Positions 25,437 through 46,300 of a stretch of 64,000 bases of DNA are shown here, in pieces. Numbering within the stretch: the stretch's first letter is position 1; each line of letters begins with the position of its first letter. Origin of the DNA: Margaritifera margaritifera (taxonomy: Eukaryota > Mollusca > Bivalvia > Unionida > Margaritiferidae); assembly GCA_029931535.1 (NCBI GenBank), contig JAQPZY010000698.1:124001-188000 (forward strand), given 5' to 3'. A program made the position numbers and the translations under genes. The notes under the pieces were generated by a model, which did no database searches, was not told the origin of the DNA, and worked only from the letters and a program-made list of their open reading frames with translations.

Positions 25437-25846
25437 AGTAGTAAGGTGGGGGTAAATAGCCTCAAATGGGGCACTCTGGCCTCATACGGGAGTTTAACAT
25501 TGCTGGGGCACTCTGGCGTCAAAATGGGACCATACGGGAGTTTAACATTGCTGGGGCACTCTGGCGTCATACGGGAGTTTAACATTGCTGGGGCACTCTG
25601 GGGTCAAAATGGGACCATACGGGAGTTTAACATGGTGGGGGCACTATAGGGTCAAGGGGAAATTAACATGGGTGACGTCATTGTTCGTCATTTTGACCCC
25701 AGAGAGACCCAACAATGCTAAAGACATGGTGGGCCTCTCTGGGGTCTAAAATAAAAATGGCGGCAACAGAAAAAAAAGGGGGTAAGCAATCATGGGAATA
25801 GAATTAATCTTTCTTGAAAAAGGGTGGTCCTCATAAGGACCGTTGG
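25437..25846. repeat. Polinton left terminal inverted repeat
   Basis: About 410 bp, the reverse complement of 46260-46668 with one indel (A8 against T7) and one or two substitutions seen. Its outer half holds sub-repeats of CATACGGGAGTTTAACATTG and CTGGGGCACTCTGG. Further in are a CRE palindrome TGACGTCA (25674-25681), a GACCCCAGAGAG / CTCTCTGGGGTC inverted pair and, at the inner edge, a histone-type 3' stem-loop facing outward. Confidence 0.95.
25810..25846 (-). terminator. histone-type 3' stem-loop and downstream element (left TIR)
   Basis: The minus strand reads CCAACGGTCCTTATGAGGAC then CACCC, a short T run and CAAGAAAGA. This gives a 6-bp GGTCCT/AGGACC stem, a 4-nt loop (TATG), an ACCC flank and a sequence identical to the classical sea-urchin histone spacer element bound by U7 snRNA. 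It begins about 14 bases after the stop of the leftward gene 25860-26405. The loop departs from the TYTH consensus at two positions but keeps T at loop positions 1 and 3. Confidence 0.82.
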
Positions 25847-25859
25847 AGGAGGAATATTT

Positions 25860-26405
25860 TTATTTCCCCCAACATTGAGTTAGGAAGCCTGGGAGGTGGA
25901 ACTTGTTTTTCTTCTTCTTCTTCTCCTCCTCCTTCTTCTCAGGTATCCAGTCGGGATGATTCAATTGTCTGAACTTGTTCTGAATTTTCATCCAGTTCAA
26001 GTTCAGACGATTGAATTGTTTTTCTCTTTTTTCCTTAACCCACATTAACTTGATTTTGGCGACCTCCTGTTCCATAATTTTTTTAATAATTGTTTCCACT
26101 CTGAGCAGGGCCGCTTCTTGTCGAGTGAGGATTATGCATTTTAAATTATCATGTAATTTATGGATGCAATCCAAAACTTCTTTAAGAAGTCCTACTCGAC
26201 AAGGTGAAGAGGAGTTCCTACTCTTCTTAACTTCCTCCTCCTTCTTCACTTCTTGAATTAAATTCAAAATCAAGTTAATGTAGGTGAAGTGTTCTATTTC
26301 CCACTTCAGACTGACTTGATACCACCACATCATTTTTTCCCTATAATACTTAACTTCCACCATCCAGTCCCAGGCTTCCTGTAGATTTTTAATGATATCA
26401 ATCAT
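25860..26405 (-). CDS. Polinton edge gene 1, lysine-rich alpha-helical protein
   Basis: 181 residues starting MIDIIKNLQEAWDWMVEVKY. Predicted to be almost wholly helical with many charged residues; the C-terminus holds a K/E-rich tract. I recognise no domain. The start is supported by a TATA box at 26449-26459 (minus strand), about 45-55 bases upstream, and by a conserved promoter block just beyond. The gene is transcribed towards the left end and its stop lies 14 bases from the histone-type stem-loop in the TIR. The opening residues and helical character loosely recall the mirror-image edge gene 45939-46235, but homology is not shown. Function unknown. Confidence 0.75.
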   Translation of the reverse strand: MIDIIKNLQEAWDWMVEVKYYREKMMWWYQVSLKWEIEHFTYINLILNLIQEVKKEEEVKKSRNSSSPCRVGLLKEVLDCIHKLHDNLKCIILTRQEAALLRVETIIKKIMEQEVAKIKLMWVKEKREKQFNRLNLNWMKIQNKFRQLNHPDWIPEKKEEEKKKKKNKFHLPGFLTQCWGK

Positions 26406-26448
26406 TCTTCAGCAATGAAGTGTGAATGGCGTTACTGTGGAAGGCACC

Positions 26449-26483
26449 GCTTTATATTCGAGAAGCGCGGACGTGATGGAAAA
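26449..26483 (-). promoter_or_regulatory. edge-gene promoter: conserved block plus TATA box
   Basis: The minus strand reads TTTTCCATCACGTCCGCGC (26465-26483), then GAATATAAAGC (26449-26459). The same block-then-TATA layout occurs at 44745-44778 and 45863-45894 in front of two other edge genes. Confidence 0.75.
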
Positions 26484-26649
26484 CTTCCCTCTTTTTTTTC
26501 CAAAAAACACACAAACACACTATCTACATTTTTTTTTAAAGGGACATTTTTTAAAAACAAATCAAGACACACAATTACATATTTTTAGTTGGTGTCAAAT
26601 AACCAATCACACAAACTCACCAACATACACACACTCTGATGGCAATGAT

Positions 26650-26697
26650 AATTAATCTTTTCTTGAAAATTGGGTGGCCCTTAGAAGGGCCTTTTTG
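26650..26697 (-). terminator. histone-type 3' stem-loop and downstream element
   Basis: On the minus strand the stem-loop GGCCCTTCTAAGGGCC (26676-26691) matches GGYYYTTYTHARRRCC exactly. It is followed by ACCCA and then TTTTCAAGAAAAGA. It lies about 33 bases after the stop of the small leftward gene 26725-26955. Confidence 0.85.
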
Positions 26698-26724
26698 TTT
26701 GTTTTTTTTTTGTTTTGGTGGGTT

Positions 26725-26955
26725 TTAGCATGTACATCTTCGGCTAGGTCTTCTTTTTCTTCTGCTTCTTCTAATTTCTGGGCCGAAGAAAAGGACTCTC
26801 TTTAAACATCCTTGACGTTCGATGTAGATGCGACTTTTCCATTCGGTGGATTCTGTTAGTTTGGTGGTAGCCCATTAGGCTTTTACATACATGGGGAATG
26901 CTGGATTAAACAGCATTTCCGAGACAATGTTCGATGCTTCCACGCTAACCCACAT
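26725..26955 (-). pseudogene. Polinton edge gene 2, small basic-tailed protein with an in-frame stop
   Basis: ATG at 26955-26953 opens a frame that runs 77 codons to a stop at 26725, with one internal TAA (26877-26875, codon 27). The part after the stop ends in an arginine-rich tail (RRSRRKRRPSRR), which is protein-like and suggests one gene interrupted by a C-to-T change (CAA to TAA). Alternatively a 26-residue peptide is all that is made. A TATA sequence (GTATATATAC, 27021-27030) lies about 65 bases upstream on the minus strand. A histone-type stem-loop follows the distal stop. No family recognised; the gene is too short for most ORF callers. Confidence 0.5.
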
Positions 26956-27020
26956 GATTTTTTTTAGTCTTTATGAGTGGTCATGGAGAAAATCGGTGAA
27001 GCTTTATGAAACCAGCGGTA

Positions 27021-27030
27021 GTATATATAC
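27021..27030 (-). promoter_or_regulatory. TATA box of edge gene 2
   Basis: Palindromic GTATATATAC positioned for leftward transcription of 26725-26955; divergent from the rightward TATA at 27142. Confidence 0.5.
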
Positions 27031-27127
27031 CTTACGATAGGATTGAAATGGATCGAAATCAACTACCAATCCAAAGGTGCGTTACAAGTGGGTCGGGTTT
27101 TCTTCCAATGGGAAGAGAGCGGGGGGG

Positions 27128-27150
27128 TGACGTCATCTCGGGTATAAAGG
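27128..27150 (+). promoter_or_regulatory. CRE palindrome and TATA box of edge gene 3
   Basis: TGACGTCA (27128-27135) is followed by GGTATAAAGG (27141-27150). The ATG lies 46-54 bases downstream, leaving a short leader. The same TGACGTCA occurs in both TIRs. Confidence 0.65.
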
Positions 27151-27195
27151 TATCGTAGCGTTCGTAGGGGTTTATTACTTTTTTCGACAGCCTTC

Positions 27196-27864
27196 ATGGA
27201 GACTGGAAAGACAAGTACTACAACAATGTATTGGAGTGAGCCTTCAATGATTAATGCTGCTGCATTATTGAACTTCCGGCCGGAAGACTTTGATTTAGAT
27301 TTACTAAATCAAGAGTTTGAGAATACTGCTACTACTACTACTACTACTACTGTACCAATGGTGGATGAATTTAAAAAAAGGCAAATGGAAGAGATGGAAA
27401 ATTTTGTAAAAAAGCAACGAGAAGAGGAAGAAATGTTTCTTCTTCTTCAACAACAGCAGAAAGAAGAAGAAGAGAGAAGAAAACAAAGTGAGGAAGAAAT
27501 CAGACAGCAGCAGCAGCAGCAGCAGTTACAAGAGGAGGAGAAGAAGGAAACAGTAAAGGAAGGCATCAGTCTTCAAGAAAAAACTGGAAGTCTGTTAGAA
27601 GAGATATTATATGAGTTAAAATGGATGACCAATGTCTATAAGTATTCTTTATCTCATCAACCACCTAAACGAAAAAGACCATCACGGGCTAAACAACATT
27701 CTTCTAAGCCTTCCAGTGCTAGTGAGATACCACCACCCATGTCACCAATACCACCACCACCACCAGTGACTACCACCATAATCAAAACACCATCAGTAGC
27801 AGCAGCATTAACAGGATATGGATTGGGCCGTGGTAAAGAACTACGGCATTTGAAGTTGATTTGA
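27196..27864 (+). CDS. Polinton edge gene 3, Q/E-rich coiled-coil protein with nuclear-localisation-like motif
   Basis: 222 residues from ATG 27196. An N-terminal region (NFRPEDFDLDLLNQEF) is followed by a threonine run, a long E/Q/K-rich coiled coil (about residues 55-135), a basic PPKRKRPSRAKQ cluster (about 155-166), a proline-rich segment and a short conserved-looking tail TGYGLGRGKELRHLKLI. The composition suggests a nuclear regulatory or DNA-associated protein, but no family is recognised. TATA and CRE lie just upstream; a histone-type stem-loop begins 35 bases after the stop. Confidence 0.8.
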   Translation: METGKTSTTTMYWSEPSMINAAALLNFRPEDFDLDLLNQEFENTATTTTTTTVPMVDEFKKRQMEEMENFVKKQREEEEMFLLLQQQQKEEEERRKQSEEEIRQQQQQQQLQEEEKKETVKEGISLQEKTGSLLEEILYELKWMTNVYKYSLSHQPPKRKRPSRAKQHSSKPSSASEIPPPMSPIPPPPPVTTTIIKTPSVAAALTGYGLGRGKELRHLKLI

Positions 27865-27892
27865 AAGTTTTTGTTTTTGAAAACAAAAGCAA

Positions 27893-27935
27893 CCCAACGG
27901 TCCTTCTAAGGACCACCAGATTTCTAGAAAAGAAA
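27893..27935 (+). terminator. histone-type 3' stem-loop and downstream element
   Basis: CCCAAC then GGTCCTTCTAAGGACC (27899-27914), an exact match to GGYYYTTYTHARRRCC, then ACCAGA and TTTCTAGAAAAGAAA. It sits 35 bases after the stop of 27196-27864. Confidence 0.87.
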
Positions 27936-28154
27936 TCAAATTGCCAAAAATCAAGTTAAAACTTTAAAAAAATCCTATGGTAAAAGTGTGAGTGCGTGCG
28001 TGCGTGCATCTCTACTCTAAAACAAAATAACACAAAACCACTTACTTTTTTTCTCCAGTCTGGTGTATTCATCCATTTTTTTTTTTTACAAAATAATTCA
28101 GCAATATAACATATAACACCAAAAAAAAAAACACACAACAAAAGTTCCTTTGTT

Positions 28155-28820
28155 TCACTCTCTGTCTCTCTTGTGTTTCTTTAATTTCTTCTTCATAGGA
28201 ATCCTAATCGTCACAGGAATAATGTCTTCCATTTTTTCTTCATTCTCACTGTCTTCCATTCTTCTTACTCTCTTCTTACTTTTCTTGATGATATGTTCTT
28301 CTTCTTCTTCTAGGTTTGAAGATCCTTCAGCTTCCTCCCTCTCTTCTTCTTCTTGTTCTTTCTGAGGGCATTCCGAAGACCAATGTCCTGGTCCTTTACA
28401 ATGATAACAGGTATCTTTGGTTTTGTCTCTCTTTTGCTGTTGACGTTGTGGGCATTCTGGAGCCCAATGTCCTTTCTCTTGACAGATATAGCAAGTATCT
28501 TGACTTTTATCTCTCTTTTGTGGACGACGTTGTGGACATTCTGGAGCCCAATGTCCTTTCTCTTGACAGATATAGCAAGTATCTTGACTTTTATCTCTCA
28601 GTGTACTTCCTTCGGTTAAATATTTCCAATCATACTTCTTTTCTTTTCTTTGTTGATGACGTTGTGGACAATAGGAAGCCCAATGTCCTTTCTTTTGGCA
28701 GAGGTAACAAGTATCTTGATTGTTATCTCCAGTGTAGTTGTATCGATATATCCTGTCGTTAATTGACGCATAGTATTCGTCAGGGTTATTCACTGGAATA
28801 GGGCTTCTTGATTTTTTCAT
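28155..28820 (-). CDS. Polinton CCHC zinc-knuckle protein (four knuckles)
   Basis: About 221 residues; the best start is ATG at 28820 (MKKSRSPIPV), since the extra upstream codons begin with TTG. Four CX2CX4HX4C knuckles (CYLCQKKGHWASYC, two of CYICQEKGHWAPEC, CYHCKGPGHWSSEC) occur about 30-45 residues apart. An acidic E-rich stretch and a basic tail (IPMKKKLKKHKRDRE) follow. CCHC knuckles bind single-stranded nucleic acid; a role with the genome or mRNA is inferred. The two middle knuckles are nearly identical, indicating recent repeat expansion. It is divergently transcribed from PolB, with back-to-back TATA sequences between them. No histone-type stem-loop or AATAAA was found downstream. 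Confidence 0.85.
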   Translation of the reverse strand: MKKSRSPIPVNNPDEYYASINDRIYRYNYTGDNNQDTCYLCQKKGHWASYCPQRHQQRKEKKYDWKYLTEGSTLRDKSQDTCYICQEKGHWAPECPQRRPQKRDKSQDTCYICQEKGHWAPECPQRQQQKRDKTKDTCYHCKGPGHWSSECPQKEQEEEEREEAEGSSNLEEEEEHIIKKSKKRVRRMEDSENEEKMEDIIPVTIRIPMKKKLKKHKRDRE

Positions 28821-28880
28821 CTTGACAGTTTGATTTGAAAGTTCAATCACCAAAGACTGATTCTGAAGGTAAGAAGGTCT

Positions 28881-28910
28881 CTATATATACTCTCCTCTCC
28901 CTATATATAG
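28881..28910. promoter_or_regulatory. divergent TATA boxes between the zinc-knuckle gene and PolB
   Basis: CTATATATAC (28881-28890, suited to the leftward gene) and CTATATATAG (28901-28910, suited to PolB) lie 10 bases apart. ATGs are about 60 and 47 bases away respectively. Confidence 0.6.
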
Positions 28911-28956
28911 GTACCTGGGAGGGTGAAACGAAATCAGTTTCAAAGTAAACTTCAAG

Positions 28957-31900
28957 ATGAAAAGATCACGCCCAAACCATGAGAAATCAGAACAACAAGA
29001 AACAAAGAGACCACGGCGGCGATTTTCCGTACCACCTGAAACACCCCTGGCTGAATTACTAGCTCAAGTTCATGCCAGTGACTTTGAAGAAGAGATGAGT
29101 GAGCCTGAAACTTCTACCCAACCCAAAACGAAACCCACCACTACTTCTACCAACACCACCACCAGAACCCCTTACCAAGAAAGGCCTAGTACCTCCTCTT
29201 TGGCTCCTCCTGAAAATTACTATCGGATTCGAGAGACACAAAAAATAACTTCTCGAAAATTTAGAACCACTGCCTACACACATACGGTTCACTTTAAAGA
29301 CTTCAAGTCCGAAGTACCTCCCGAGAAGGCAGCAGGGTTCATTAGCGATTTGTGGGAATCTGTCTTACAGAACTTGAAGCGCCAATGTAGAGCTAAAGAA
29401 GAGGATCGATTGAGACTGTCTATTCATCATGACCATTTGAAGACTCCTGTTTGGATCGAGTTCAGCACCCCGGCAGAATTAACCCCAGACAAAGTCATGT
29501 CCAAAATAGAACATGTACAACAATCCAATGACAAGTTTACCATCACCGATGGAAAGGCGACCCTTTACATGACTCACGTTTCTCCACCTCGAGGGAGCGG
29601 ACGAAGTAGGAAACCGTTATTGGTGGACGATCTTTGTACTACCAAACACAGTGTCGTCCAAATTAACAATACTCATGACCAGATGTGTTTGGCTCGAGCT
29701 ATTGTGGTGGGGCGTACGTATGCTAACAAGAACGAGAGTAAAGAATGGAAAAGAGCCTGGAAGAGCATTCGACAATCGGACAGAGCCAAACAACGAAACG
29801 AGGCAGAACTCCTGTTGCGACAAGCTGAGATCCCTAAAGAGACCGTGTGTGGCATTTCTCAAATGCAGAAACTTCAAGATGTTTTGGCTCCTCACTATAC
29901 TTTGAAAGTACACCCTCAAGAAGTGCGTGGAGCTCTACAGTTTCGATGCCCTGATTTTCCTGAAGGAAAATACATTCATCTTTATCACCATCAAGAACAT
30001 TTTGATACCATTACCAGTATCACAGGATTTTTAGGATACTCTTACTTCTGTGAGAAATGTAACAAAGGGTTTAACAGCCGGGAGCAACACATTCATTGTG
30101 GTCAGAGATGTCGGGGATGTTTAGCAGACCAACCATGCCTTCCTGAACAACACGTTCATTGTGAAACCTGTCGACGTGAATTTGTCAGTCCTACTTGTTA
30201 CCAACAGCATCTCAAGACCCAAGGACGACACCAACAAAAATGTGCTTGCGAGTTATTGAAATTGTGTTCTACGTGTGGACAACTGATTCGTACCAACACT
30301 AACGAGAGACACGTTTGTGCTGACAAGAAAAAATGTTCTATTTGCAAGAAGATTGTCGATTTTGATCATCGATGTTTTATTCAAAAGCACGATAAGATAG
30401 AGAAGAAAGAAATAAAGATGAAGAAGAACAAGAACCAAGTAGATTTCATCTTCTTTGATTTTGAATGCATGCAAGAAACAGGTGATCACATTCCTAATTT
30501 TTGTGTGGCTCATCGGGCTTGTAATCAGTGCATTCAAGAATCGATTCATTTTCACTGTCCTCATTGTAGTCGTATTCCAGGAGGACGTGAAAAAATCTTT
30601 CGTGGGGTGAATACTTTGTCTGAGTTTGCTGAATGGATTTTAGACCCCACCACCCACGACACTTGGAGCGAAGAAGACATTCAACGTTACGGAAGTTGTC
30701 ATCGGTATGCGACCGTCATAGCTCACAATTTTTCGGGATACGATGGACAGTTTTTACTCAATTATTATTTGAACCATGGAACCGAACGCCCTGAAGTCAC
30801 CATGAACGGAAAAAAAACTCATCTACATGAAAGTAGGACAAGTCAAATTTAAAGATTCGATGAGTTATTTGGCCATGCCTTTGAGTCGAATGCCTAAAAC
30901 GTTTGGCATGACAGAAATGGCCAAAGGTTATTTTCCTCACTTTTTCAACACGGAAGCTAATCAACATGCCGTCCTACCTCATTTGCCTGACCTTCGTGAT
31001 TACGACCCCGACGGAATGCGCCCCGAACAGCGAGAAGCCTTTCACACTTGGTACCGCGCTCACCAGACCGATCCCTTTGACTTTCAAGAGGAGATGCTCA
31101 AATATTGCCGATCCGATGTGGATATTTTAAGACGTTGTTGTGGAAAGTTTCGAGAGTTATTTCTCGATCACGGAGAGGTCGATCCTTTGAAAGATGCGTC
31201 CACCCTACCTAAAGCTTGTTCCTTAGTCTACAGGCAAAATTTCATGCCCGAGAACCAAGTAGCCATCATCGACTCCAATACGTCTCTCTTTGCCAGTCGT
31301 CAATATTCGGCCAAAGCTTTACGCTGGCTTCATTACTTGTGTGAAAAAGAAGACACATGGATACAACATGCTAGAAACGGAGGAGGAGAAAAAAAGATTG
31401 GAGGTTATTCCGTGGATGGTTGGGATTTAGAAAACCCGCACATAGTGTACGAGTTTCAGGGTTGTTTGTTTCACGGATGCCCAACCTGTTATCCTAACCG
31501 AGACATGAAAGGTCCTTATTCAGATTCTACCATGGAACAGTTATACGAACAGACTTGCCAACGACGACTCAAGTTAGAAAGTCAAGGATATCAAGTGGTG
31601 GAAATGTGGGAGCACGAATACGATCAACGTTTGAAAACCGATCCTGAATTTAAGACCATCACTCAAAGTCACGACGCGGCCGACATCGAACCTTTGGATT
31701 CACGCCACAGTTTATTTGGAGGACGAACCAATGCCACTCGTTTGTTGTACGACGTGAATGAATCCCAAGGAGAAGAAATCAAATACATCGACGTGTGTTC
31801 TTTGTATCCTTGGGTGTGCAAATATGCTCGTTTTCCCACCGGACACCCTGAAATTTTAACAGAACACATTGACGTGGAACACATTCGTCAATACGAAGGA

Positions 31901-33121
31901 TTGATCAAATGTAAAGTCTTACCTCCTACAAACTTGTTTCATCCCATCTTACCTCACCATTGTCAAGGAAAATTGATGTTTCCTTTATGTCGGACGTGTG
32001 CCGAAACGTGCAACCAAGATCATCCCTGTCGCCACACGAAGGAAGAACGGTCGTTGACAGGAACGTGGGTCAGTGCCGAATTGTTTCGAGCTCTGGATCG
32101 TGGATACCGTTTATTGAACGTATACGAAATTTGGCACTTTCCAACTACAGCCCAATACCAAAAGGACGACGCCACTAATCATCCAGGCATTTTCTCGGGG
32201 TACGTGAACCAATTTCTCAAACTTAAACAAGAAGCTAGTGGTTATCCTTCGTGGTGTCAGACTCCCGAAGACCAAGTTCAATTCAAAGAAGAGTACTTTA
32301 ACGTCGAAGGAATCACTTTAGAAGACGTAGAAAAAAATGAAGGAAAAAGATCGTTTGCTAAAGTGATGTTGAATTGTTTGTGGGGAAAAATGGCCCAACG
32401 TACGATCTTACCCAAAACGGAATACGTGGACGATCCTTATCGTTACTTTGAATTGGTGGACGACAAAAGTATACTAGTTAAACACGTCGAAATCGTCCGT
32501 GAGAATTTGATCTATGTCAATTTCGAAGAAGAACCCAAGTTTGTCAAACCTGACGACTTTAGCAACGTAGTCATTGCCGCTTACGTGACCGCTCATGCTC
32601 GCTTGAAATTGTACGACGAAGCGTTAGAAGTCTTGGGAGATCGCGTCTTGTATTTTGATACTGACAGCTGCATGTACATTCATCGACCCGGTTGCCCCCA
32701 CCCTACCATCCAAGGAGATCGTTTAGGAGCCTGGACAGACGAGCACCCTCAAGATACCATTTTGAGTTTTGCTAGCGGTGGCCCTAAAAATTATGGGTAC
32801 CGATACCGAGACCCTCAAGGTCAACTTCACACCTCCTGTAAAGTCAAAGAGTTGACTCTGAACTATCGAACTAACCAAGTCGTGAACTTTGAGGTTTTAA
32901 AAAATGCTTTACTGTCTGGAAAAGTGAAAGATTTTCAAGTAGCCACGTTAGAACCTCACAAGATTGTACGCCTACCTAATCATCAAATTGTGACTCGACC
33001 TGTTCAAAAACTGTATCGCATCGTGTACCAAAAACGAGTGAGACTTCCAGATCACACCACTTTACCTTACGGACACGCCGATTTGGAGAAGTATAAAAAA
33101 AGGAAACCCTCCTCTTTTTGA
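28957..33121 (+). CDS. polB: Polinton protein-primed-type DNA polymerase B (frameshifted)
   Basis: Replicates the element's linear DNA. The first frame (28957-30852) has a disordered N-terminus, a family-specific N domain, a Cys/His zinc-binding region (about residues 362-450), exonuclease motif I FFDFEC (D501, E503) and motif II HNFSGYD (590-596). The second frame (30827-33121) has exo III YCRSDVD (93-99), the FQGCLFHGCPTC block, polymerase motif A IDVCSLYP (D322), motif B KVMLNCLWG (512-520) and motif C YFDTDS (D611). The join needs a one-base change within the A8 run 30810-30817, where sequence in the second frame continues the protein smoothly. All catalytic motifs are present. The frameshift is either a real lesion or a sequencing error. 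Confidence 0.95.
33091..33100 (+). promoter_or_regulatory. TATA box before BIR gene 1
   Basis: GTATAAAAAA, 42-51 bases before ATG 33142, inside the 3' end of PolB. Similar TATAAAA boxes precede most of the following genes. Confidence 0.5.
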
Positions 33122-33141
33122 AAAAAAAAAACAGAAAAAAG

Positions 33142-33612
33142 ATGTCTTCAACAACATGGGCTTTGCCTGACTATGGTGAGTGTGACAGTCGCTTGAAGAC
33201 GTTCAAAAATTGGCCTAAACACATGCCTGACTATTGTTATTGTCCTCATCGATGGAGCACAAAAAAAAAACAACTTAGGAACAATGGATTACCTACTTCC
33301 TACGCTTTAGCCAGAGCAGGCTTTGTTTACTTTGGACGAGGAACACAAGTTCAGTGTTTTAGTTGTGGTGTCACTATTCGTATGGATTGTAAGAAATCCG
33401 CTCTCCTGGAACATACCAGATGGTCACCAAACTGTGCTTACCTTTCTTTAACGTTTCCACGGATCACATTACAATACTTTTCGGATGGTACAGTCGACAT
33501 TTATAAAAAAGGAACCCCTTCCAAGCCTAACCCTTCATTCTCACTTTCAACGTTAACCAAGAAGCAAGAAGAAGAAAAAAAAAAAGATGAGTCACTACGA
33601 CTTGGAGTGTGA
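33142..33612 (+). CDS. BIR-domain protein 1 (IAP-like)
   Basis: About 156 residues from ATG 33142; the longer frame starts with a non-ATG codon. A single BIR domain: R-x-KTFKNWP near the start, then ALARAGFVYFGRG, VQCFSCG (C72, C75), H91 and C98, the zinc ligands in the order C-x2-C-x15-H-x6-C. No RING finger follows. BIR proteins bind caspases or related partners and restrain apoptosis in animals and their viruses. Here such a role is inferred. The 3' end overlaps the next gene's start by 26 bases. Confidence 0.88.
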   Translation: MSSTTWALPDYGECDSRLKTFKNWPKHMPDYCYCPHRWSTKKKQLRNNGLPTSYALARAGFVYFGRGTQVQCFSCGVTIRMDCKKSALLEHTRWSPNCAYLSLTFPRITLQYFSDGTVDIYKKGTPSKPNPSFSLSTLTKKQEEEKKKDESLRLGV

Positions 33613-34147
33613 TGCAGAACCATGCAATGAAACGGATTCTGTTCGGTTTGGTATTCCCGATTCACACGTTCAAACGGATTCCTTACGTTGTAACATCTTG
33701 GATTCAGGACCCTCTGGAAGTCTCACTCATCGGTCACCCTCTAAAGAGGCAGTACGACCTTTTTGCTTCAGTGGAAATACTAAAGGAACTGGTATTGACG
33801 TTAATGACAACAAGGTGAATGTGGGTCCATATTCGCATATCAGAATACCTAAGAGTTTACTTGGTTATTCCAAGTATGAAAGTCGACTCGAGTCATTCAA
33901 AGACAAGTGGCCAAAATTTCTAGAAGGACCTAAACCGGAAGGTTTAGCTAGATCTGGATTTAAATACACGGGAGAAGGAGATAAAGTTCAATGTTTCAGT
34001 TGTGGTGTGAAACTTCACCATTGGGAGCCTACCGACTCAGCTTACATTGAACATGCCAGATGGTCTCCGCACTGTCACTTCTTACCTTTAGTGGCTTTAG
34101 AACAGTACGGGTACGATGAGCCAGATGCTAAACAAAAGAAGAAGTAA
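33587..34147 (+). CDS. BIR-domain protein 2 (IAP-like)
   Basis: 186 residues. About 80 N-terminal residues of no recognised family precede a BIR domain: SRLESFKDKWPKFL, GLARSGFKYTGEG, VQCFSCG (C136, C139), then H156 and C163. The domain is clearly paralogous to the neighbour's and has a better-conserved BIR core (W after CG-x-K). No RING domain. The start at ATG 33587 overlaps the preceding gene; a TATA-like TTATAAAAAA lies at about 33501-33510. Host-derived acquisition followed by duplication is likely. Confidence 0.88.
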   Translation: MSHYDLECDAEPCNETDSVRFGIPDSHVQTDSLRCNILDSGPSGSLTHRSPSKEAVRPFCFSGNTKGTGIDVNDNKVNVGPYSHIRIPKSLLGYSKYESRLESFKDKWPKFLEGPKPEGLARSGFKYTGEGDKVQCFSCGVKLHHWEPTDSAYIEHARWSPHCHFLPLVALEQYGYDEPDAKQKKK

Positions 34148-35887: not shown

Positions 35888-36646
35888 ATGGCTACATCCT
35901 CCTCTTCTGCCTCGTCTACCTCTTCTACTTCCTCTGTGGTCAAAGTGATTGACGAAAAGTTAGATCGTCAAAGTTGGAATGCTTTGTATCTGCGCCATCC
36001 ATTTAACATGTTGATTGCTGGACCCAGTGGTTCAGGGAAAACCGAATTTGTCAAACGATTGATCGAACACAAAACTGATTTGTTTGATCATCCACCTCAA
36101 CGTATCGTGTGGTGTTACAAAGAGTGGCAACCGTCTTACACGTTATTGAAAGAAAGTCAAGGAGAAACCATTTCGTTTGTGGATGGTATTCCTCACGAAG
36201 ACGATGGAATCGTGTCTGACGTGAGTCAAACTCATTTAGTTATTTTTGATGACATGTTAGGAGAAGACGAAGAAGAAATTAAACTTTGGTTTACACGAAA
36301 AGGACACCATCGTAATGCTAGTATTGTCTACATTACACAAAATTTATTTCAACAAAGTAAAGCCCATCGAACCATCAGTTTGAATGCTCATTACGTGGTC
36401 TTGTTTAAGAGCCCCAGAGACAAATCTCAAGTACAAGTGTGAGCCAAACAGTTAGGGGCTCCTTGGCTCAATTATGCGTACGACGATGCCACTCAAACCC
36501 CTCACGAGTATTTACTCATCGACTTAAAACCTACCACTCCTGACTATTTGAGATTTCGTGCCCAATTGTTTCACCCTTGGGGTGAAGAAGGGGGTCCTGT
36601 CATTTACACGTCCCCTTCAGCCCATTTTTTAAAAAAAAAACTATAA
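35888..36646 (+). CDS. A32/FtsK-like packaging ATPase with in-frame TGA
   Basis: Motor thought to package DNA into the capsid. From ATG 35888 the frame gives 252 residues. A serine-rich leader is followed by Walker A GPSGSGKT (45-52), Walker B HLVIFDD (about 117-122) and a sensor-like YITQNLFQQ. A TGA at 36440-36442 (codon 185) interrupts the frame, but protein-like sequence continues in register (AKQLGAPWLNYAYDD, EYLLIDLKP) to TAA at 36646, as expected for the family's C-terminus. A CGA arginine codon changed to TGA is the simplest explanation. The motor core remains upstream of the stop. The longer N-terminal extension to 35849 is less likely because it precedes the expected transcription start. 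Confidence 0.92.
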
Positions 36647-37647: not shown

Positions 37648-37649
37648 AA
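37643..37649 (+). promoter_or_regulatory. TATA box before the 37703 gene
   Basis: TATAAAA, 60 bases before ATG 37703, overlapping the stop of the preceding gene. Confidence 0.5.
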
Positions 37650-37702
37650 TAGAAGGGTGAAATGCCAAAGACTTCAGACTTACTTCCTCCTCACCTCTAA
37701 AG

Positions 37703-38128: not shown

Positions 38129-38212
38129 CCCCCCCCCCCCCAAAAAAAAAAGAAGATAAAAAGGACCACCCTTCTCTGAAAAGACCACACCTTTTTGGTA
38201 CCTTTGGATGAA

Positions 38213-38815: not shown

Positions 38816-38855
38816 GGAAATCATCATCATCATCATCGATATCATCATCATCATC

Positions 38856-39974
38856 ATGGAGAAACTGTTAGCTAGCCTTTATTACAATCCTGGCCATGCT
38901 GCTGGTTACGGAGGAGTTCAAAAATTATATCGAGCTGCTAAAAGTAAATTGAAAAGTGTACGTTTGCCCGAAGTACGACGATGGTTACAAGAACAATCGA
39001 CGTACACGTTACACAAACCCATTCGACGTAAATTTTCTAGAAGTACCACTCAAGTGGAAGGGATCGATCATCAATGGCAAGCCGATTTAGCTGACGTCTC
39101 TCATTTAGCCACTTACAATCGTGGTCACAAATATTTGTTTTGTGTCATCGACGTGTTTTCCAAATTTGCTTGGGTCGTGCCTTTGACTTCTAAAAGCAGT
39201 ACCGAATTGGTACGAGCCTTAAAATTGGTCTTGAAACAAAGTGGACGTCAACCTTTACGATGGCAAACTGACAAAGGCACCGAATTTCTAAACCAAGCTT
39301 TTCAAAAAGAATTGAAACAAAGACACAGTCATTTTTTTTACTACCGAAAATCCTGAAACCAAAGCCAGTATCGTGGAACGTTTTCAAAGAACTTTGAAAG
39401 AACGCATGTGGAAATATTTTACACATCAACATACTCTCAAGTACATCGACGTGTTACCTCGTTTGGTCAAAGCGTACAATCAATCGTACCATCGTAGCAT
39501 CGGATGTGCCCCCGAAGAGGTCAGCCCTGAAAACGAAGTGTCTGTGTTTGATAAATTATTTGGTTCACCCCAGACCAAAAAAAAAAGAAGACATCCTTGT
39601 TGGAGTTAAAGACGGGAGATTGGGTTCGCATCGGAAAAACCAAACGTGCTTTTGACAAAGGTTATTTACCTAACTGGACCACCGAATTGTTTCGTGTCAC
39701 TACCCCCGTCCGTAGACGTGATCCTCCCGTCTATAAATTGGAAGACATGCACGGTGAAGTACTCAAAGGAACATTTTACTTGCCTGAGTTACAACGAGTG
39801 ACTAAAAAAGAAGACACCTTGTACGACATCGAAAGCATTCTCGAACAAAGAACACGTAAAGTAGGTAAACGACGAGTAGAAGAAGTCAAAGTACGTTGGA
39901 AAGGATATCCACCTAGTTTTGATTCTTGGATTGCGGCTTCTCAAGTCGTCGACTATAAAAAGAAAAAGAAGTAA
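38856..39974 (+). CDS. Polinton integrase with C-terminal chromodomain (two frameshifts)
   Basis: Inserts the element into host DNA. The three frames are 38856-39356, about 39340-39609 and about 39580-39974. The DDE core shows D77 (WQADLADVSH), D139 (QTDKGTEF) and, after the first shift, E in SIVERF (GAA 39376-39378). The last part holds a target-binding module (LELKTGDWVRIG) and a chromodomain (YDIESILEQR ... VRWKGYPPSFDSW, about 39820-39960). Chromodomains can steer integration to marked chromatin. The shifts fall in T8 (39332-39339) and A10 (39577-39586), both prone to slippage or sequencing error. The three catalytic acids are intact. Confidence 0.93.
39953..39960 (+). promoter_or_regulatory. 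TATA box before the membrane-protein gene
   Basis: CTATAAAA, 31 bases before ATG 39984, inside the integrase 3' end. Confidence 0.5.
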
Positions 39975-39983
39975 ACTCACAAC

Positions 39984-40424: not shown

Positions 40425-41485
40425 ATGACCAATTTTATTTAACGTTACCTAGTGACAGTTCCATGGATGTGTTTCCCAACAACCGCTTATGTTGTTTCAC
40501 GGCCAAATTACCTCAATCCATCCAATTGGATCACGATACTCATTGGGAAGTGAGTTTGGTAGAAATCATTCATCCTACGCAAATCATAAACATCAACAAA
40601 ACTCAAAACACTATGGTTGTACAAATCTTGAACAAAAATATACATGATGAGTTGGTGAATAATGATCCTGAAATCTGCAAAGAAGACCCTGAAATTCCAG
40701 ACATGAAGGGCTCATTCAAAAAGTTAGTACCAGATCCTAAATCTACTCAACCTACTGTCTATTCTCAGATTACCCTGAGAATTCCTACAGGGTATTATTT
40801 TAGTCCTGAACATTTGGTGGACACCATTAGAACCCAGTTTGCACGCCAATTTAACAAAGCCTTATCAACGACCAATAAATGGGTACGAATTGCTTACCAT
40901 GGTTTGTCACGCCGTTTAATCGTCCAATTTTTCAAAGAGAGAGGCCAACTCATTAGTGAGAAAGATAAAGGTTTACCTTTGGAAGAGAGAAGATTCGTCA
41001 GCATTGAATTTTCATCTGGATTGTTTGGTATTTTGGGTGGAAATAAATTGCTTACCGCTGAAGACGATATAGAGTTTGGAACCAATGTAGAATTTGGACA
41101 TAAATTTAAACATCCTATCGAATTGAATGGTGGACTGAATTTAATGTTTGTGTACTCCGATGTGGTGGAGTACTACGTGGTGGGACACACATCCGCTCCG
41201 TTACTGAGAGTCATTCCTTTCAAATTGGATATTGGTGGTGGTAATTCTACTACTACTACTGTGAACGAAGAGGGTGAAACTAGTACCTCTAGTAGTAGTG
41301 GTAATGGTGGCAACACCTTTCACGTTAACCGTGAATTTGTACATCCTCCTTATCTTCCAGTTAGTAAATCGTATTTTGACAGTGTCCAGATTAGTATAAA
41401 AGGAGATTTAGGACAAGATGTGCCATTCATTGACCAAGGAAAAGTCACGGTGAAACTACATTTTCGAAAAAAACTAATTCTCTAA
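40421..41485 (+). CDS. Polinton minor capsid (penton-like) protein
   Basis: 354 residues. Opens with FYLTLPSDSSMDVFPNNRLC and continues with FTAKLPQSIQLDHDTHWEVS and LVEIIHP, the signature start of Polinton penton-like proteins. The predicted fold is a single jelly roll at capsid vertices. A poorly conserved Thr/Ser/Gly loop (about residues 275-295) probably projects outward. The frame is intact. It is followed within 30 bases by the next gene. Confidence 0.9.
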   Translation: MNDQFYLTLPSDSSMDVFPNNRLCCFTAKLPQSIQLDHDTHWEVSLVEIIHPTQIININKTQNTMVVQILNKNIHDELVNNDPEICKEDPEIPDMKGSFKKLVPDPKSTQPTVYSQITLRIPTGYYFSPEHLVDTIRTQFARQFNKALSTTNKWVRIAYHGLSRRLIVQFFKERGQLISEKDKGLPLEERRFVSIEFSSGLFGILGGNKLLTAEDDIEFGTNVEFGHKFKHPIELNGGLNLMFVYSDVVEYYVVGHTSAPLLRVIPFKLDIGGGNSTTTTVNEEGETSTSSSSGNGGNTFHVNREFVHPPYLPVSKSYFDSVQISIKGDLGQDVPFIDQGKVTVKLHFRKKLIL

Positions 41486-41511
41486 CGAATTGTAACTGAC
41501 CCAAAAAAAAA

Positions 41512-41964
41512 ATGTATCCAGTGTACCAAGGAGTGGCTCGACAACGAGGACATGGTTTAGGAGATATGTTAAAATCAGCATTTCGGACGGTAGCTCCTAT
41601 TTTGAAACCGATGGTGACTCGAGGATTTCATGCCTTAAAAGATGCCGCTTTGACACAAGGAAAAGAATTTTTGCAAAATGTCCTCATCGACAAGCAAAAT
41701 CCTAAAGAAGCTTTTATGAGAGCAGGCAAAAATGTGTTGATGACCACTGGTAAAGATCTTTTAGGTCTCCGAGAAAATCCTATAAATACGCTTCACGCTT
41801 CAGGCTCTGGCATTACTTCACAGCAGCAAGGACAAGGTAGAAAGAGACGACGACGACGACATCGAAATCCTTTCAAAGTTCATAAAAGAACACACGGTAG
41901 TACTTCCAGAAAGAATAGGAAAAGAAGAAGAACTGGTAGAGAATTAGACGTATTTGATTATTAA
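41512..41964 (+). CDS. Polinton basic minor virion protein C
   Basis: 150 residues. An N-terminal amphipathic region (GLGDMLKSAFRTVAPILKPM) is followed by helices, a Gly/Gln linker and an arginine-rich C-terminus (GRKRRRRRHRNPFKVHKRTH). Comparable in layout to adenovirus protein VI/X-type precursors: a lytic or scaffolding helix plus a DNA-binding tail. It lies directly between penton and major capsid genes, the usual place for this gene in animal Polintons. Confidence 0.78.
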   Translation: MYPVYQGVARQRGHGLGDMLKSAFRTVAPILKPMVTRGFHALKDAALTQGKEFLQNVLIDKQNPKEAFMRAGKNVLMTTGKDLLGLRENPINTLHASGSGITSQQQGQGRKRRRRRHRNPFKVHKRTHGSTSRKNRKRRRTGRELDVFDY

Positions 41965-41973
41965 ACTGTGAAA

Positions 41974-43338
41974 ATGATGCACCGAGATTCTTGCGAATGT
42001 ACCAAGTCCGAACTAGATCTGTTTTCTATGCCTCCCACCATGATGACGATGCAAGAATCCCAATGGGTGGAATTTCATCCTGTATCGTCTTTGACGGAAT
42101 CAGCTCCTATCGAATTTGAAATCAAAGGACAAACCGAAGATTACATCGATCTGAATAACAGTTACTTGTACCTGAAACTGGTAGTACAAAAAAATGACAA
42201 CAGCCTTCCTGTGGAAAATTCCAGAGTAGCTCCCGTCAATAATTTCTTTCATTCTTTGTTCAGTGGAGTAGATTTGTACTTGAATAACAAACTGATCAGC
42301 AGCAGTTTGGATACTTACCCTTACCGTGCTTATTTGGAAAATCTCTTGTCGTACGGAAAAGATGCCAAGAACACTCATCTGGATGCTTCTGTGGTCTGGA
42401 AACTTGACACTGCGACAAAGTTCGACAATACAGAATTACCTGTAGCAGCGGTAGCGCAGATAGGTGTACAAGGTCAGGCAGGATACGCAGCAGCAGTAGT
42501 AGCAGACCCAAAAAATGTCGGATTTAACGAACGTCGAAAGAAAATCAGGCAAAGTTTAGAACTGATGGATCGTTTGCATTTGGACATGTGGTTGCAAGAC
42601 AAGTATTTGTTGAACGGAGTAGATGTACGCCTGAGACTGAATCGCAGTAGTGGTGCTTTCCATTTGGTAAGTGAAAACAACGAGTGGAAAACCATCATCC
42701 AACAAGCCAAACTTTACGTGTGACGTGTAGAAATCTTACCAAAAGTAGCTAACGACATCAGTCAATCCTTGAGCAGAACCACAGCTAAGTATCCTCTTAG
42801 ACGTGTGGAAGTGAAAACCTTTACTGCAGCCGCTGGACTCAGATCCATAGTCGAAGATCACATCTTCCAAGGACAGCTCCCTAAACGCTTGATCATTGGC
42901 ATGGTCAAAAATTCAGCCTTCAACGGAGTCAACAATCAGAATCCATTCCAGTTTGAACACTTTAACGTCACCAAGATAGATGTCAGTCGAGATGGCAAGA
43001 CCTTGTGTACCAGACCTTTTGAACCTGACTTTGGTGGCCAGAGAAATTACTTACGATCTTACTTGAGCCTGTATGAAGCCACAGGTCAGTTAGGTCGCGA
43101 CACCAGCCACGGCATTTCGTACGACGATTATGCAGGAGGGTATGCCTTGTGGGGTTTTGATTTCACTCCGGACCAAGGCAGCGATGAAGGACATTTCCAC
43201 CCTATAAAATCAGGCCCCCTTCGTGTGGAACTTCAGTTTGGTCAAGCTCTAGACCAGACAGTGAACGTCGTCTTGTATGCAGAATTTGATAACACTCTAG
43301 AGATCAACAGTTTGAGAGAAGTCATTGTAGACTATTAG
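41974..43338 (+). CDS. Polinton major capsid protein with in-frame TGA
   Basis: The frame from ATG 41974 gives 454 codons before the final stop, the usual size for double jelly-roll Polinton capsid proteins. The first half has PIEFEIKGQTEDYIDLNNSY and NNFFHSLFSGVDLYLNN; the second has RSYLSLYEATGQLGRD and YALWGFDFTPDQGSD, both family blocks. Codon 250 is TGA (42721-42723), just after QQAKLYV, where Polinton capsids normally have arginine. The sequence carries on in frame, so a single CGA-to-TGA change is likely. Without read-through only the first jelly roll would be made. Confidence 0.94.
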
Positions 43339-43353
43339 AAGAAAAGAACAAAG

Positions 43354-43935
43354 ATGCAGAACGTAGAACCTATGGAGATAGATGAGGGATTTTGTGAAGT
43401 GATTCAACAGTCACCAACTACCACAAAGGATAATGATGATGATGATAATGACGAAGTCATTCATTCAGTACCTCGAATAGAAGAAGAAGAAGAAAACCAT
43501 TCAGTTCCTGTGTTTACTGGATTTATGGTTTCTCGATGGCCAGAACACGAAAAACAGTTAGTGACCTGTTATGCTCAGGAATTGAGTCCAATCATTAACA
43601 GTCTGATTAAAGAACAATGTTATGGATGTCAAAACGATCATCCCAGTCAGATACAACACGACAAATGTATGATGATGACAGGTGAAGAAAAATTGAATGA
43701 ATATTTGGAAACGGCCTGGTCACAACTCTCAGATGAACACGTGTTGAAACAGTGGTATAAAGTCTTGATGAATTCTTCTTTTCCTCCACTTACTTCTCTG
43801 GAGATCAAACGGATCGAAGGACTCATTCATCAGAGTGCAGAACCTATCCGACGTGAATATTCCTGGAATTACAAGACAGATTCATTCAAGTTTAAAGTCA
43901 GGTGTGCATTGGTGACTCAAAATTTCCATTGTTGA
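43354..43935 (+). CDS. Polinton conserved protein with Cys/His cluster
   Basis: 193 residues. An acidic N-terminal half (about 1-55) precedes a conserved region with CYGCQNDHPSQIQHDKC, a probable metal-binding C-x2-C...H...C cluster, then LEYLETAW-type helices. The motif YGCxxDHPSQxxHDxC recurs in Polintons next to the protease gene. Function unknown. The frame is intact and lies 13 bases before the protease gene. Confidence 0.8.
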   Translation: MQNVEPMEIDEGFCEVIQQSPTTTKDNDDDDNDEVIHSVPRIEEEEENHSVPVFTGFMVSRWPEHEKQLVTCYAQELSPIINSLIKEQCYGCQNDHPSQIQHDKCMMMTGEEKLNEYLETAWSQLSDEHVLKQWYKVLMNSSFPPLTSLEIKRIEGLIHQSAEPIRREYSWNYKTDSFKFKVRCALVTQNFHC

Positions 43936-43948
43936 AGACAAAAAAAAA

Positions 43949-44545
43949 ATGGATACCAGGGAACTTCATTACTTATTGAATCGCAGTTCCTATACTTCTT
44001 CTTGGAATCCTGTGGTATGTGCTAAAGATGAACTACCTCATCGTAAACCAAAAAACGTTCATGCTTATGTCATCAATACTGACGACAGTGATCTACCAGG
44101 AACCCATTGGATTGACGTGTACTTTCCCAACGATCACTGTGTGGAATATTTTGATTCTTATGGATTACCTCCTTTGGAAAAAGACATCATCAAGTTTATG
44201 AGAAGAAATGCCGTCTCGACTCGATTCAATAATGTGAGACTACAAGGATCAGATTCTATGGTGTGTGGACAATATTGTGTTCATTATCTTCATCAACGCA
44301 GTCTTGGATATTCCTTAGAACATTTACTAACTTATTTTGATAGTGACTATGTTAGAAACGATGCTAAAGTACAACAATGGTTTTGTCAACGTTATGGTTA
44401 TCTCTTGTCTTTAGCTCACAATCGTAGTGTACATCAAAATGATGTCGATGTAGAAAGTTTCACATTTACTTTACCTTCCCAACGTTGTCAACCTTGTAAA
44501 TATGTTCCTGTTTTAAAATTTATGGTTGAATGGTTAGTTTTTTAA
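43949..44545 (+). CDS. adenain-like (Ulp1-fold) cysteine protease
   Basis: 198 residues. Catalytic His53 in THWIDVY, acidic residue Asp69 in EYFDSYG, a glutamine upstream of the oxyanion hole and nucleophile Cys106 in MVCGQYCVHYL match the adenovirus-protease layout. In Polintons this enzyme is thought to mature capsid proteins. The frame is intact. It is the last gene of the rightward core block and is followed by AATAAA. Confidence 0.93.
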   Translation: MDTRELHYLLNRSSYTSSWNPVVCAKDELPHRKPKNVHAYVINTDDSDLPGTHWIDVYFPNDHCVEYFDSYGLPPLEKDIIKFMRRNAVSTRFNNVRLQGSDSMVCGQYCVHYLHQRSLGYSLEHLLTYFDSDYVRNDAKVQQWFCQRYGYLLSLAHNRSVHQNDVDVESFTFTLPSQRCQPCKYVPVLKFMVEWLVF

Positions 44546-44566
44546 ATGTTAGAATAGTTCTTGTTG

Positions 44567-44572
44567 AATAAA
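44567..44572 (+). terminator. polyadenylation signal after the protease
   Basis: AATAAA 22 bases after the stop, followed by a GT-rich TTTTGTTGATTGTTG. A conventional 3' end for the core block. Confidence 0.7.
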
Positions 44573-44744
44573 CAATTTTGTTGATTGTTGAAAAAAAAAT
44601 GGTGTTGTGTGGTTTATTTTATTGAATTTGAAAATAATGAATATGTTCTTTCTCTCTCTTTCTATCGATCTAAAAAAAGTTAAACCTTTTTGCCTCTATC
44701 TATGATCTCCCTGTCGATCTGAAAGAAAAAAAAACCTTACCATG
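44573..44744. other. short intergenic stretch in the Polinton
   Basis: T-rich and pyrimidine tracts (CTTTCTCTCTCTTTCTATCG); no gene seen. Confidence 0.5.
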
Positions 44745-44778
44745 TTTTCCATCGCGTCCGCGCGTTAAGCATATAAGG
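44745..44778 (+). promoter_or_regulatory. edge-gene promoter: conserved block plus TATA box
   Basis: TTTTCCATCGCGTCCGCGC (44745-44763) followed by CATATAAGG (44770-44778). It differs at one position from the block at 26465-26483 on the other strand. Confidence 0.8.
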
Positions 44779-44849
44779 CGGTTCACTGGCCAGTGATGTC
44801 ATTCTCGTTGACTCGTCAAGATCTCAACAGTTCCAAGAAGAAAAAGAAG

Positions 44850-45269
44850 ATGGCTGCCACCAAGATTACAAAGCTGAATGAAGCTATGGTGAACATAATG
44901 AGGGTGAAGAATCATTTGATGGAGACCAACCCAGAGAGAAAGACGATGACGTTCATTCAAATGGCTCATGATCTAGTAGAAGAGGTCCTGAGAGAAGAAA
45001 TACTTAGAGAAAGAACAGAATGGGAGGCAGCACAACGACTACAGCAGCAGCAACAAAGACAACAACAGCAGCAACAGCAACAACTTATGCAGCAGCAGCA
45101 GTCCAGCAAACTATTTGACGGCGAAGTCCATTGCAAGATTGACTGCGAGGAATTTGCTTTCTCTTTCACCCGAAAGAGACCTGCCTGTCTGAAAGCGGTA
45201 AGACCTATCGCTAAACGTGGCCGACCTGCTGGAGCTACTGCCACAGCTACATCCACCCTAAGAAGTTAA
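44850..45269 (+). CDS. Polinton edge gene 4, Q-rich coiled-coil protein with AT-hook-like motif
   Basis: 139 residues from ATG 44850 (MAATKITKLNEAMVNIMRVK), chosen because the upstream ATG (44796) lies only about 20 bases from the TATA box, at or before the expected transcription start. A helical N-terminal part, a polyglutamine stretch (about 65-90) and a C-terminal KRGRPAG resembling the AT-hook core that binds AT-rich DNA. Possibly a DNA-binding regulator; not a recognised family. A histone-type stem-loop begins 28 bases after the stop. The TTTTCC...CGTCCGC block upstream is shared with two other edge genes. Confidence 0.75.
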   Translation: MAATKITKLNEAMVNIMRVKNHLMETNPERKTMTFIQMAHDLVEEVLREEILRERTEWEAAQRLQQQQQRQQQQQQQQLMQQQQSSKLFDGEVHCKIDCEEFAFSFTRKRPACLKAVRPIAKRGRPAGATATATSTLRS

Positions 45270-45290
45270 AAAAAAAACATAATTTCTTAA

Positions 45291-45335
45291 CCCCAACGGC
45301 CCTTCTAAGGGCCACCCAATCTCTAGAAAAGATTA
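45291..45335 (+). terminator. histone-type 3' stem-loop and downstream element
   Basis: CCCCAAC then GGCCCTTCTAAGGGCC (45298-45313), an exact match to GGYYYTTYTHARRRCC, then ACCCAA and TCTCTAGAAAAGATT. The 5' flank AAC, the 6-bp stem and the ACCCA flank are all as in animal replication-dependent histone genes. Confidence 0.88.
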
Positions 45336-45339
45336 CTAC

Positions 45340-45716
45340 TCTCAAATATTGCCAATATCTATAGGTGTGTTTTATATGTTTGTATGTTTGTTTGTGATAG
45401 TAAACCCAACAAAAAACCCTTTTCCCCTTGTATATTTGTGGTGTGTGTTGAATATAAAAAAAATGTTAAAAAAAGGGTTGTGTGGTGTGTGAAAGTTTGA
45501 TATAAAAAAATTTAAAAAGTAAAAAAAGGATAGTGTGATGTGTGTAAGTTTGATATTAAAAAAATATTTTTAAAAAAAATGGATGTTATGTTTGTGGAGT
45601 GTGTTTGGTTTATAAAAAAATGGATTGTATGTTTGTGGAGTGTGTTTGGTTTATAAAAAAAAAAAAAAAAAAAAAAATATGGATGGTATGGTGTGTGTTT
45701 GATTTTTATCAAAAGT
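45340..45716. repeat. T/A- and TG-rich degenerate repeats
   Basis: Repeated GTGTGGTGTGTGAAAGTTTGATAT-like and ATGTTTGTGGAGTGTGTTTG (duplicated) units separated by A-runs. No gene. Confidence 0.6.
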
Positions 45717-45817
45717 AGTTTCTTTTAGGTCCGCGCTTTTTAGAGTCAGGGGTCATGGAGTGTAAACTCCGCGAAGCCAAGAATGACGTAGAAAGAATGA
45801 CGTCAGACGCGGGGTAG
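45717..45817 (+). other. possible decayed edge promoter and 20-codon ORF
   Basis: TTTTAGGTCCGCGCTTTTTA (45724-45743) recalls the conserved edge block, without a good TATA box. ATG 45755 opens a 20-codon frame ending TAG at 45817, and a TGACGTCA lies inside it. It may be the remnant of another edge gene or mean nothing. Confidence 0.25.
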
Positions 45818-45862
45818 TGGGGTGATGTTTTTTTTTTTTTGTTTTTTTAGGTGTAAGGGATG

Positions 45863-45894
45863 TTTTCCTTCACGTCCGCACTTCTAGTATATTA
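45863..45894 (+). promoter_or_regulatory. edge-gene promoter: conserved block plus TATA box
   Basis: TTTTCCTTCACGTCCGCAC (45863-45881), then TATATTA (45888-45894), 45 bases before ATG 45939. Confidence 0.75.
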
Positions 45895-45938
45895 AAACAA
45901 CGTCTTCACCGGTTAAGCTATCCAGTTTATTCAAGAGA

Positions 45939-46235
45939 ATGAACAACATAGAAATCATCAGACAAGTTAAAGTGAATTTAGAGGTGGCGTGGCACCTCCT
46001 CCAAGATCTAGAGAAGAAGGAGAAGGAGGAGAGGGAGAAGGAGGAGAGGGAAAGCAAAATTCCCATCAGACCTCATCCAATGATGGAGGATTCCAATAAA
46101 GAAAATTGGAATCCTGAAGCAAACCATCCTCCCTTTGTTTTAAAAAAGGGAAACAGATGCATGAGTGCAGCTACATGGAGGGGGAGCTGCCCTGCATGCA
46201 GGGCAAAGCCAGGGAGGTGCCCACACCTCCTCTAA
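45939..46235 (+). CDS. Polinton edge gene 5, small protein with CxxC tail
   Basis: 98 residues starting MNNIEIIRQVKVNLEVAWHL. A K/E-rich coiled coil (about 25-42) is followed by a polar segment and a tail with CMSAATW and CPAC that might bind metal. Unknown family. The start is supported by a TATA box 45 bases upstream. The stop lies 29 bases before the histone-type stem-loop of the right TIR, mirroring edge gene 1 at the left end. Confidence 0.72.
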   Translation: MNNIEIIRQVKVNLEVAWHLLQDLEKKEKEEREKEERESKIPIRPHPMMEDSNKENWNPEANHPPFVLKKGNRCMSAATWRGSCPACRAKPGRCPHLL

Positions 46236-46256
46236 ATGAACTTTAACCAAACAAAA

Positions 46257-46300
46257 AAACCAACGGTCCTTATGAGGACCACCCTTTTTCAAGAAAGATT
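46257..46300 (+). terminator. histone-type 3' stem-loop and downstream element (right TIR)
   Basis: CCAAC then GGTCCTTATGAGGACC (46265-46280), ACCC, TTTTT and CAAGAAAGA. Identical to the left-TIR copy and pointing out of the element. Confidence 0.82.

Follow-up and report, generated by a model that had tools for sequence, protein, structure and literature searches.

The 64-kb window analysed here (positions 124,001 to 188,000 of contig JAQPZY010000698.1 from Margaritifera margaritifera) contains one Polinton-type element with both ends present (25437-46668; 21,232 bp), in which five genes lying towards the ends, the edge genes E1 to E5, are each followed by a stem-loop and a purine-rich downstream element. 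We consider it highly probable that the edge genes in this Polinton/adintovirus have the type of 3' end known from replication-dependent histone genes of animals, with SLBP and the U7 small nuclear ribonucleoprotein (snRNP) of the host making non-polyadenylated messages from them.

Each stem-loop pairs six bases around a loop of four. GGTCCT-TATG-AGGACC follows E1 (25826..25841, minus strand) and recurs as its terminal-repeat copy behind E5 (46265..46280, plus), GGCCCT-TCTA-AGGGCC follows both E2 (26676..26691, minus) and E4 (45298..45313, plus), and GGTCCT-TCTA-AGGACC follows E3 (27899..27914, plus). When the 64 kb were scanned on both strands with 4227 Rfam families, Histone3 (RF00032) matched at all five sites with 29.3-42.2 bits (E 4.2e-9 to 2.7e-4), namely at 25802-25846 behind E1 (29.3 bits), 26651-26696 behind E2 (42.2 bits), 27894-27939 behind E3 (33.7 bits), 45293-45338 behind E4 (37.1 bits) and 46260-46304 behind E5 (29.3 bits), and, up to E = 10, RF00032 matched nowhere else in the window. 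A stricter pattern required exact stem pairing, U as the first and third loop base and CCAC where the stem ends. It matched the element five times, but neither the outer 42.8 kb nor any of 1000 dinucleotide shuffles of the element. A preliminary description of this DNA had reported five such stem-loops and named the Histone3 covariance search as a check; the significant matches at all five sites and the empty shuffles indicate that the stem-loops are real and lie where it had put them. It had counted two at the left end and three spread between the ends, whereas the left end has three and the right end two. Furthermore, the two outermost sites are one sequence and count as one because both lie in the terminal inverted repeats, which leaves four distinct sites among the five.

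Every stem-loop is on the same strand as the reading frame that precedes it (5/5), and the stem begins 18, 33, 34, 28 and 29 nucleotides (nt) past the stop for E1 to E5, respectively. The 3' flank of the stem reads ACCC(A/T) or ACCA. Further on, AGAAAGA or AGAAAAGA begins 11, 12, 11, 11 and 11 nt past the stem, that is, at 5/5 sites and 4/4 distinct ones, against a background of 229 in 42384 element positions (0.54%) that have AGAAA(A)GA 5-14 nt downstream. The putative downstream elements that U7 would bind are CAAGAAAGA for E1 (25808..25816, minus) and E5 (46290..46298, plus), CAAGAAAAGA for E2 (26656..26665, minus) and CTAGAAAAGA for E3 (27924..27933, plus) and E4 (45323..45332, plus); we take CAAGAAAGA to be the form in which the U7-pairing downstream element occurs in sea urchins and molluscs. 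The preliminary description had thus rightly noted a short distance from stop to stem-loop (18-34 nt as measured) and a downstream element a few bases beyond the stem, while of the ACC(C)A flanks that it gave the ACC core holds and the remainder has to be amended as above. It had also stated that no histone is encoded nearby, which agrees with the Pfam search, where none of the 20 element open reading frames (ORFs) submitted matched a histone family; hidden histone genes are hence rejected.

With its 6-bp GGYYYU/ARRRCC stem, UNUN loop and ACC flank, the purine element 11-12 nt past the stem, the short distance from the stop and short genes with TATA-like words, the arrangement is the same as that of the metazoan replication-dependent histone mRNA 3' end (RF00032). 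It differs from metazoan histone genes in that the genes here have no histone match and belong to a virus-like transposon.

The same arrangement is present on one distant Polinton-type contig. A scan of prokaryote-species assemblies for relatives of the window's polymerase gave nine contigs, eight of which (L005-L012) were given to Rfam, and L005, whose polymerase is 37% identical to that of the window in the best segment, has an RF00032 match at 8335-8380 (35.8 bits). The stem-loop of L005 starts 28 nt past the stop of an 89-residue C2H2 zinc-finger ORF and has AAAGAG 15 nt past the stem; the contig also carries an rve integrase, a TATA-binding-protein (TBP) gene and ORFs taken for capsid and protease. 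Taking the five sites together with L005, all 36 stem cells are paired, U occupies loop positions 1 and 3 in 6/6 sequences, the sites are alike at a mean column identity of 76%, and folding of the stretch after the stop predicts the six-pair stem in every case (6/6). The 3' ends of E2, E3, E4 and L005 fold clearly better than shuffles (z -2.8 to -5.9). In 3/6 sequences, two of them repeat copies, both sides of the third stem pair differ, with U-A in place of C-G. When the six sites were made into a model (R1), it scored them at 59-68 bits and no other sequence in 26 sources above 22.3 bits, which shows separation only, because the six sites were its training set. In the viral contig collection, a search with the single protein found no polymerase relatives and an alignment search found three distant ones. 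The TBP gene of L005 (7189-7695, minus; TBP 1.2e-27) has a relative on L009, which likewise bears Polinton-type genes (11595-12113; 27% identity); this is an unusual transcription factor for a virus.

Read on the gene strand, the 250 nt past the stop contain neither AATAAA nor ATTAAA in any edge gene (0/5), save for one AATAAA that overlaps the E1 stop. By contrast, the last ORF of the core array (43949-44545, plus) has AATAAA 22 bases on (44567..44572, plus); further AATAAA words are present inside the core. We propose that host SLBP would bind the stem-loop of an edge-gene message and that the purine-rich element downstream of the stem would base-pair with the U7 snRNP of the host, upon which the message would be cut about 5 bases past the stem and would keep no poly(A) tail. 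Such processing by SLBP and U7, and with it the lack of poly(A), is the most likely outcome of these signals. In mouse, the U7 snRNP cuts 4-5 nt past the stem, and the histone downstream element (HDE) has AAAGAG as its purine core (PMC7026596). The core array would end conventionally, with the AATAAA behind its last gene. Edge messages would be stable and translated as long as SLBP is present, i.e. in S phase, which would supply nucleotides and replication factors to a virus-like element replicating its own DNA. Since abundance and translation would follow SLBP, they would therefore follow S phase, and we lean slightly towards such a coupling of the edge messages. The compact signal would also separate the tandem, outward-facing genes near the genome ends.

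Several observations weigh against histone-type ends as the explanation. The RF00032 gathering score of 34 is reached at two of the five sites and missed at the other three. Compensatory changes are present in one of the six stem pairs, and this covariation is weak because 27 of 500 shuffles score at least as high. When folded, the E1 and E5 3' ends barely beat shuffles (z -1.5 and -1.7; 13/200 and 12/200 as good). Poly(A) ends are possibly also made, because besides the AATAAA at the E1 stop there is an ATTAAA 286 bases beyond the E4 stop and an AATAAA about 70 nt beyond the stem-loop of L005. The copy is not intact, with integrase and capsid regions split and a stop in the E2 frame. As to relatives, in which the preliminary description had named conservation as a further test, L005 bears its reading out, but seven of the eight scanned contigs with related polymerases have no RF00032 match; this absence says little because the seven are fragments of 3.6-16.3 kb, four of them from one bin. 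Finally, L005 is a single contig filed under a Bacteroidia bin, and the zinc-finger gene on it may be the host's own and not part of the element.

Four other explanations have to be set against these data. Histone-type processing could be a mere compact 3' end or terminator for the tandem, outward-facing end genes and have no cell-cycle meaning, which we think possible but a good deal less probable than the explanation proposed above. Indeed, E2/E1 and E4/E5 are arranged in tandem, E1 and E5 point outward and end inside the terminal repeat, the inner boundaries of the repeats (25846 and 46260) are the first base of the Histone3 match at either end, and cleavage can be SLBP-independent given strong U7 pairing (PMC7026596). 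However, an AATAAA would be equally short, and one does stand behind the core array; moreover, E3 points toward the core and is convergent with the CCHC gene described below, yet it carries a stem-loop too. The stem-loops might also be relics of a host histone gene end that was captured once, copied within the element and is no longer used. The likeness of the sites, a promoter word shared by E1, E4 and E5, which makes duplication of cassettes likely, and the partial damage of this element copy would fit such a history. Yet none of the 20 ORFs given to Pfam has a histone match, the distant Polinton-type contig has the arrangement as well, and pairing, loop U's, strand, spacing and downstream element have all been kept though the edge proteins are unalike beyond low-complexity matches, so that we regard relics as improbable.

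That the hairpins act as DNA or as some other signal, for instance in replication, packaging or integration, and resemble histone ends incidentally is very improbable in our view: two of the five sites do stand where the terminal repeats have their inner edge, but three are outside the repeats, and all five follow stops in the sense orientation with a purine element at fixed spacing, which a DNA hairpin would not need. Chance hairpins are refuted by the shuffle test (0 in 1000 versus 5 here) and carry a next to negligible probability. Core patterns of this kind do arise by chance in very large collections: when about 2.9 million viral contigs were scanned six times for core stem-loop patterns, 21 loci came up (L001 and L014-L033). 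RF00032 matched none of them, with L001 judged by E-value up to 0.1 and the remaining 20 by the gathering score; none was seen by eye to have AGAAA(A)GA 5-14 nt behind the stem in the flanks looked at, and 12 have stems with a mismatch or wobble. With 0/21 loci matching RF00032, the idea that the signal is common in viruses at large is rejected as well. One of these contigs, L033, holds three Twister-P5 ribozymes on the minus strand (1422-1481, 2756-2814 and 4409-4472), which are spaced about 1.3 and 1.65 kb apart.

The genes that would use these histone-type ends are small. E1 (25860..26405, minus) encodes 181 residues of basic character (pI 9.5) without a Pfam match at E <= 1, and its single-sequence structure model is all-helical and of low confidence (predicted local distance difference test, pLDDT, 58.5), too poor for a structure search. 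E3 (27196..27864, plus; 222 residues, acidic) is divergent from E2, E4 (44796..45269, plus) has 157 residues and is basic (pI 10.0), and E5 (45939..46235, plus) has 98. The preliminary description had a gene frame in front of each site, which is correct save for the site at 26696 (minus), where the gene has no intact frame longer than 34 residues: the remains of E2 (26725..26955, minus) consist of 26 residues, an in-frame stop and a further open stretch of 49 residues that is rich in arginine at its end. In Pfam, E1, E3, E4 and E5 gave no histone family at E <= 1 and no convincing match, and a search for E4 homologues returned 31 candidates, none at E <= 0.01. The edge proteins share no likeness beyond low-complexity matches, for which reason the likeness of E3, E4 and E5 in BLAST was rejected as homology; the short motifs IxCxE and RGRP in E4 and KEN in E5 are too short to use. 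A further edge gene with four CCHC zinc knuckles (28155..28820, minus; zf-CCHC 1.2e-25) has no RF00032 match behind it.

A promoter word, TTTTCCWTCRCGTCCGCRC, precedes E1 (26465..26483, minus), E4 (44745..44763, plus) and E5 (45863..45881, plus), and together with a TATA-like word, which follows it before E4, it is common to these three genes. E1, E4 and E5 are hence short and apparently intronless genes that are TATA-driven and end in a stem-loop, and because they share TTTTCCWTCRCGTCCGCRC and the TATA-like word, gene cassettes may have multiplied within the element. The edge genes may be early genes. The cAMP response element (CRE) word TGACGTCA, typical of adenovirus early promoters, occurs in the element at 25673, 27128, 45798 and 46425, all in edge regions, and in L005 at 7874, 7889 and 7952, just before the zinc-finger gene, as well as at 6182. 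With four copies in the element versus eight in the 42.8 kb of flanks it is not clearly enriched, and because of the copies in the flanks it is a weak hint.

Judged by its genes and ends, the element is a Polinton/adintovirus, because a type B polymerase, an rve integrase, an A32-type ATPase, terminal repeats and a 6-bp duplication are all present. The terminal inverted repeats measure about 410 bp at 99-100% identity (left 25437..25846, with arms 25437-25781 at 100% and 25771-25846 at 99%; right 46260..46668) and are bordered on each side by the 6-bp target-site duplication GAAGTT (25431..25436 and 46669..46674), a trait of Polintons and adintoviruses. In the core, all on the plus strand, the type B DNA polymerase (30827..33121; PF03175 1.7e-32) has adintovirus and oyster relatives: among the best 120 of 1250 matches, the named ones include oyster, coral and other animal proteins as well as PolB-C of a Rhodactis coral adintovirus at 45% identity. 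Two overlapping ORFs with BIR (inhibitor-of-apoptosis) matches in Pfam adjoin the polymerase (33142-33612 and 33587-34147, plus). An A32-like packaging ATPase follows at 35888..36442 (PF04665 1.2e-8). The retroviral-type (rve) integrase region (38856..39947; PF00665 7.2e-13) is damaged, its ORF stopping at 39356 while homology to L005 continues in tblastn to 39947. A putative major capsid region, likewise damaged, extends over two ORFs (41974..43338) and resembles an L005 ORF at 4113-5399 (tblastn 1.5e-56); it has no Pfam match, and its name comes from this similarity and from its position. Regions of the window resemble the L005 ORFs that we take to be major capsid protein and cysteine protease, neither of which has a Pfam match, and the minor capsid candidate of L005 gave no tblastn match in the window.

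The DNA around the element holds an apparently intronless, full-length inositol oxygenase gene (52297-53151, minus), which is 92% identical to that of Potamilus streckersoni, other matches reaching at most 75% identity among the best 120 of 7923; by this gene the host is most likely a freshwater mussel of the unionids or close to them. A retrotransposon-like integrase polyprotein lies at 12769-16164 (minus) and has a SCAN domain match (2.8e-11). Two long hairpins at 1805-1864 and 17798-17869, whose arms share TAGACCCTGATCTG and which give weak, below-cut-off matches to microRNA families, are probably a short inverted-repeat transposon. A minisatellite with the 24-base unit cattattacataggaaagggcttg occupies about 47880-50470, read to 48500 and beyond that deduced from an 881-codon ORF (47823-50468).

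With known Polinton/Maverick elements and adintoviruses the element shares its terminal repeats and 6-bp duplication as well as the type B polymerase, the rve integrase and the A32-like ATPase; it differs in the histone-type 3' ends of its edge genes. Among the matches listed in a search of the open-licence literature, Polinton genes with histone-type 3' ends were not described elsewhere. A non-coding RNA scan of polinton-like viruses and virophages gives six histone 3'UTR stem-loops as a count that the section concerned does not discuss, none of the six being within cryptophyte viruses (PMC12220804); the genomes that bear them would be mainly elements of protists. Adomaviruses and tailtomaviruses encode histone-like 'Histoid' proteins (PMC11071296). 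These, too, are animal DNA viruses that borrow from the histone world, one of them with adintovirus-like virion genes, but there the protein is histone-like, whereas in the window's element the mRNA end would be histone-like and the proteins are not. The words stem-loop, stem loop and hairpin do not occur in the main text of PMC11071296.

In summary, the edge genes of this mussel element carry what reads as the complete 3' end of a replication-dependent histone gene, and the pattern may extend beyond one copy. The odds seem to us about even that an animal Polinton/adintovirus lineage uses the histone 3'-end system as an expression class of its own, in which edge, probably early, genes would be non-polyadenylated and coupled to S phase and core genes polyadenylated, and which would date back far enough to be common to members whose polymerases are about 37% identical. 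Such a class would amount to a sensor of host DNA replication built into a selfish element. If so, an RF00032 match behind the edge genes would be the prediction for every animal Polinton, and the messages of such genes would be absent from poly(A)-selected RNA libraries and hence missed. Histone-type 3' ends are taught as a mark of histone genes. Several non-histone genes of one mobile element with the full signal would mean that the pathway can be borrowed and would connect virus-like elements directly with S phase.

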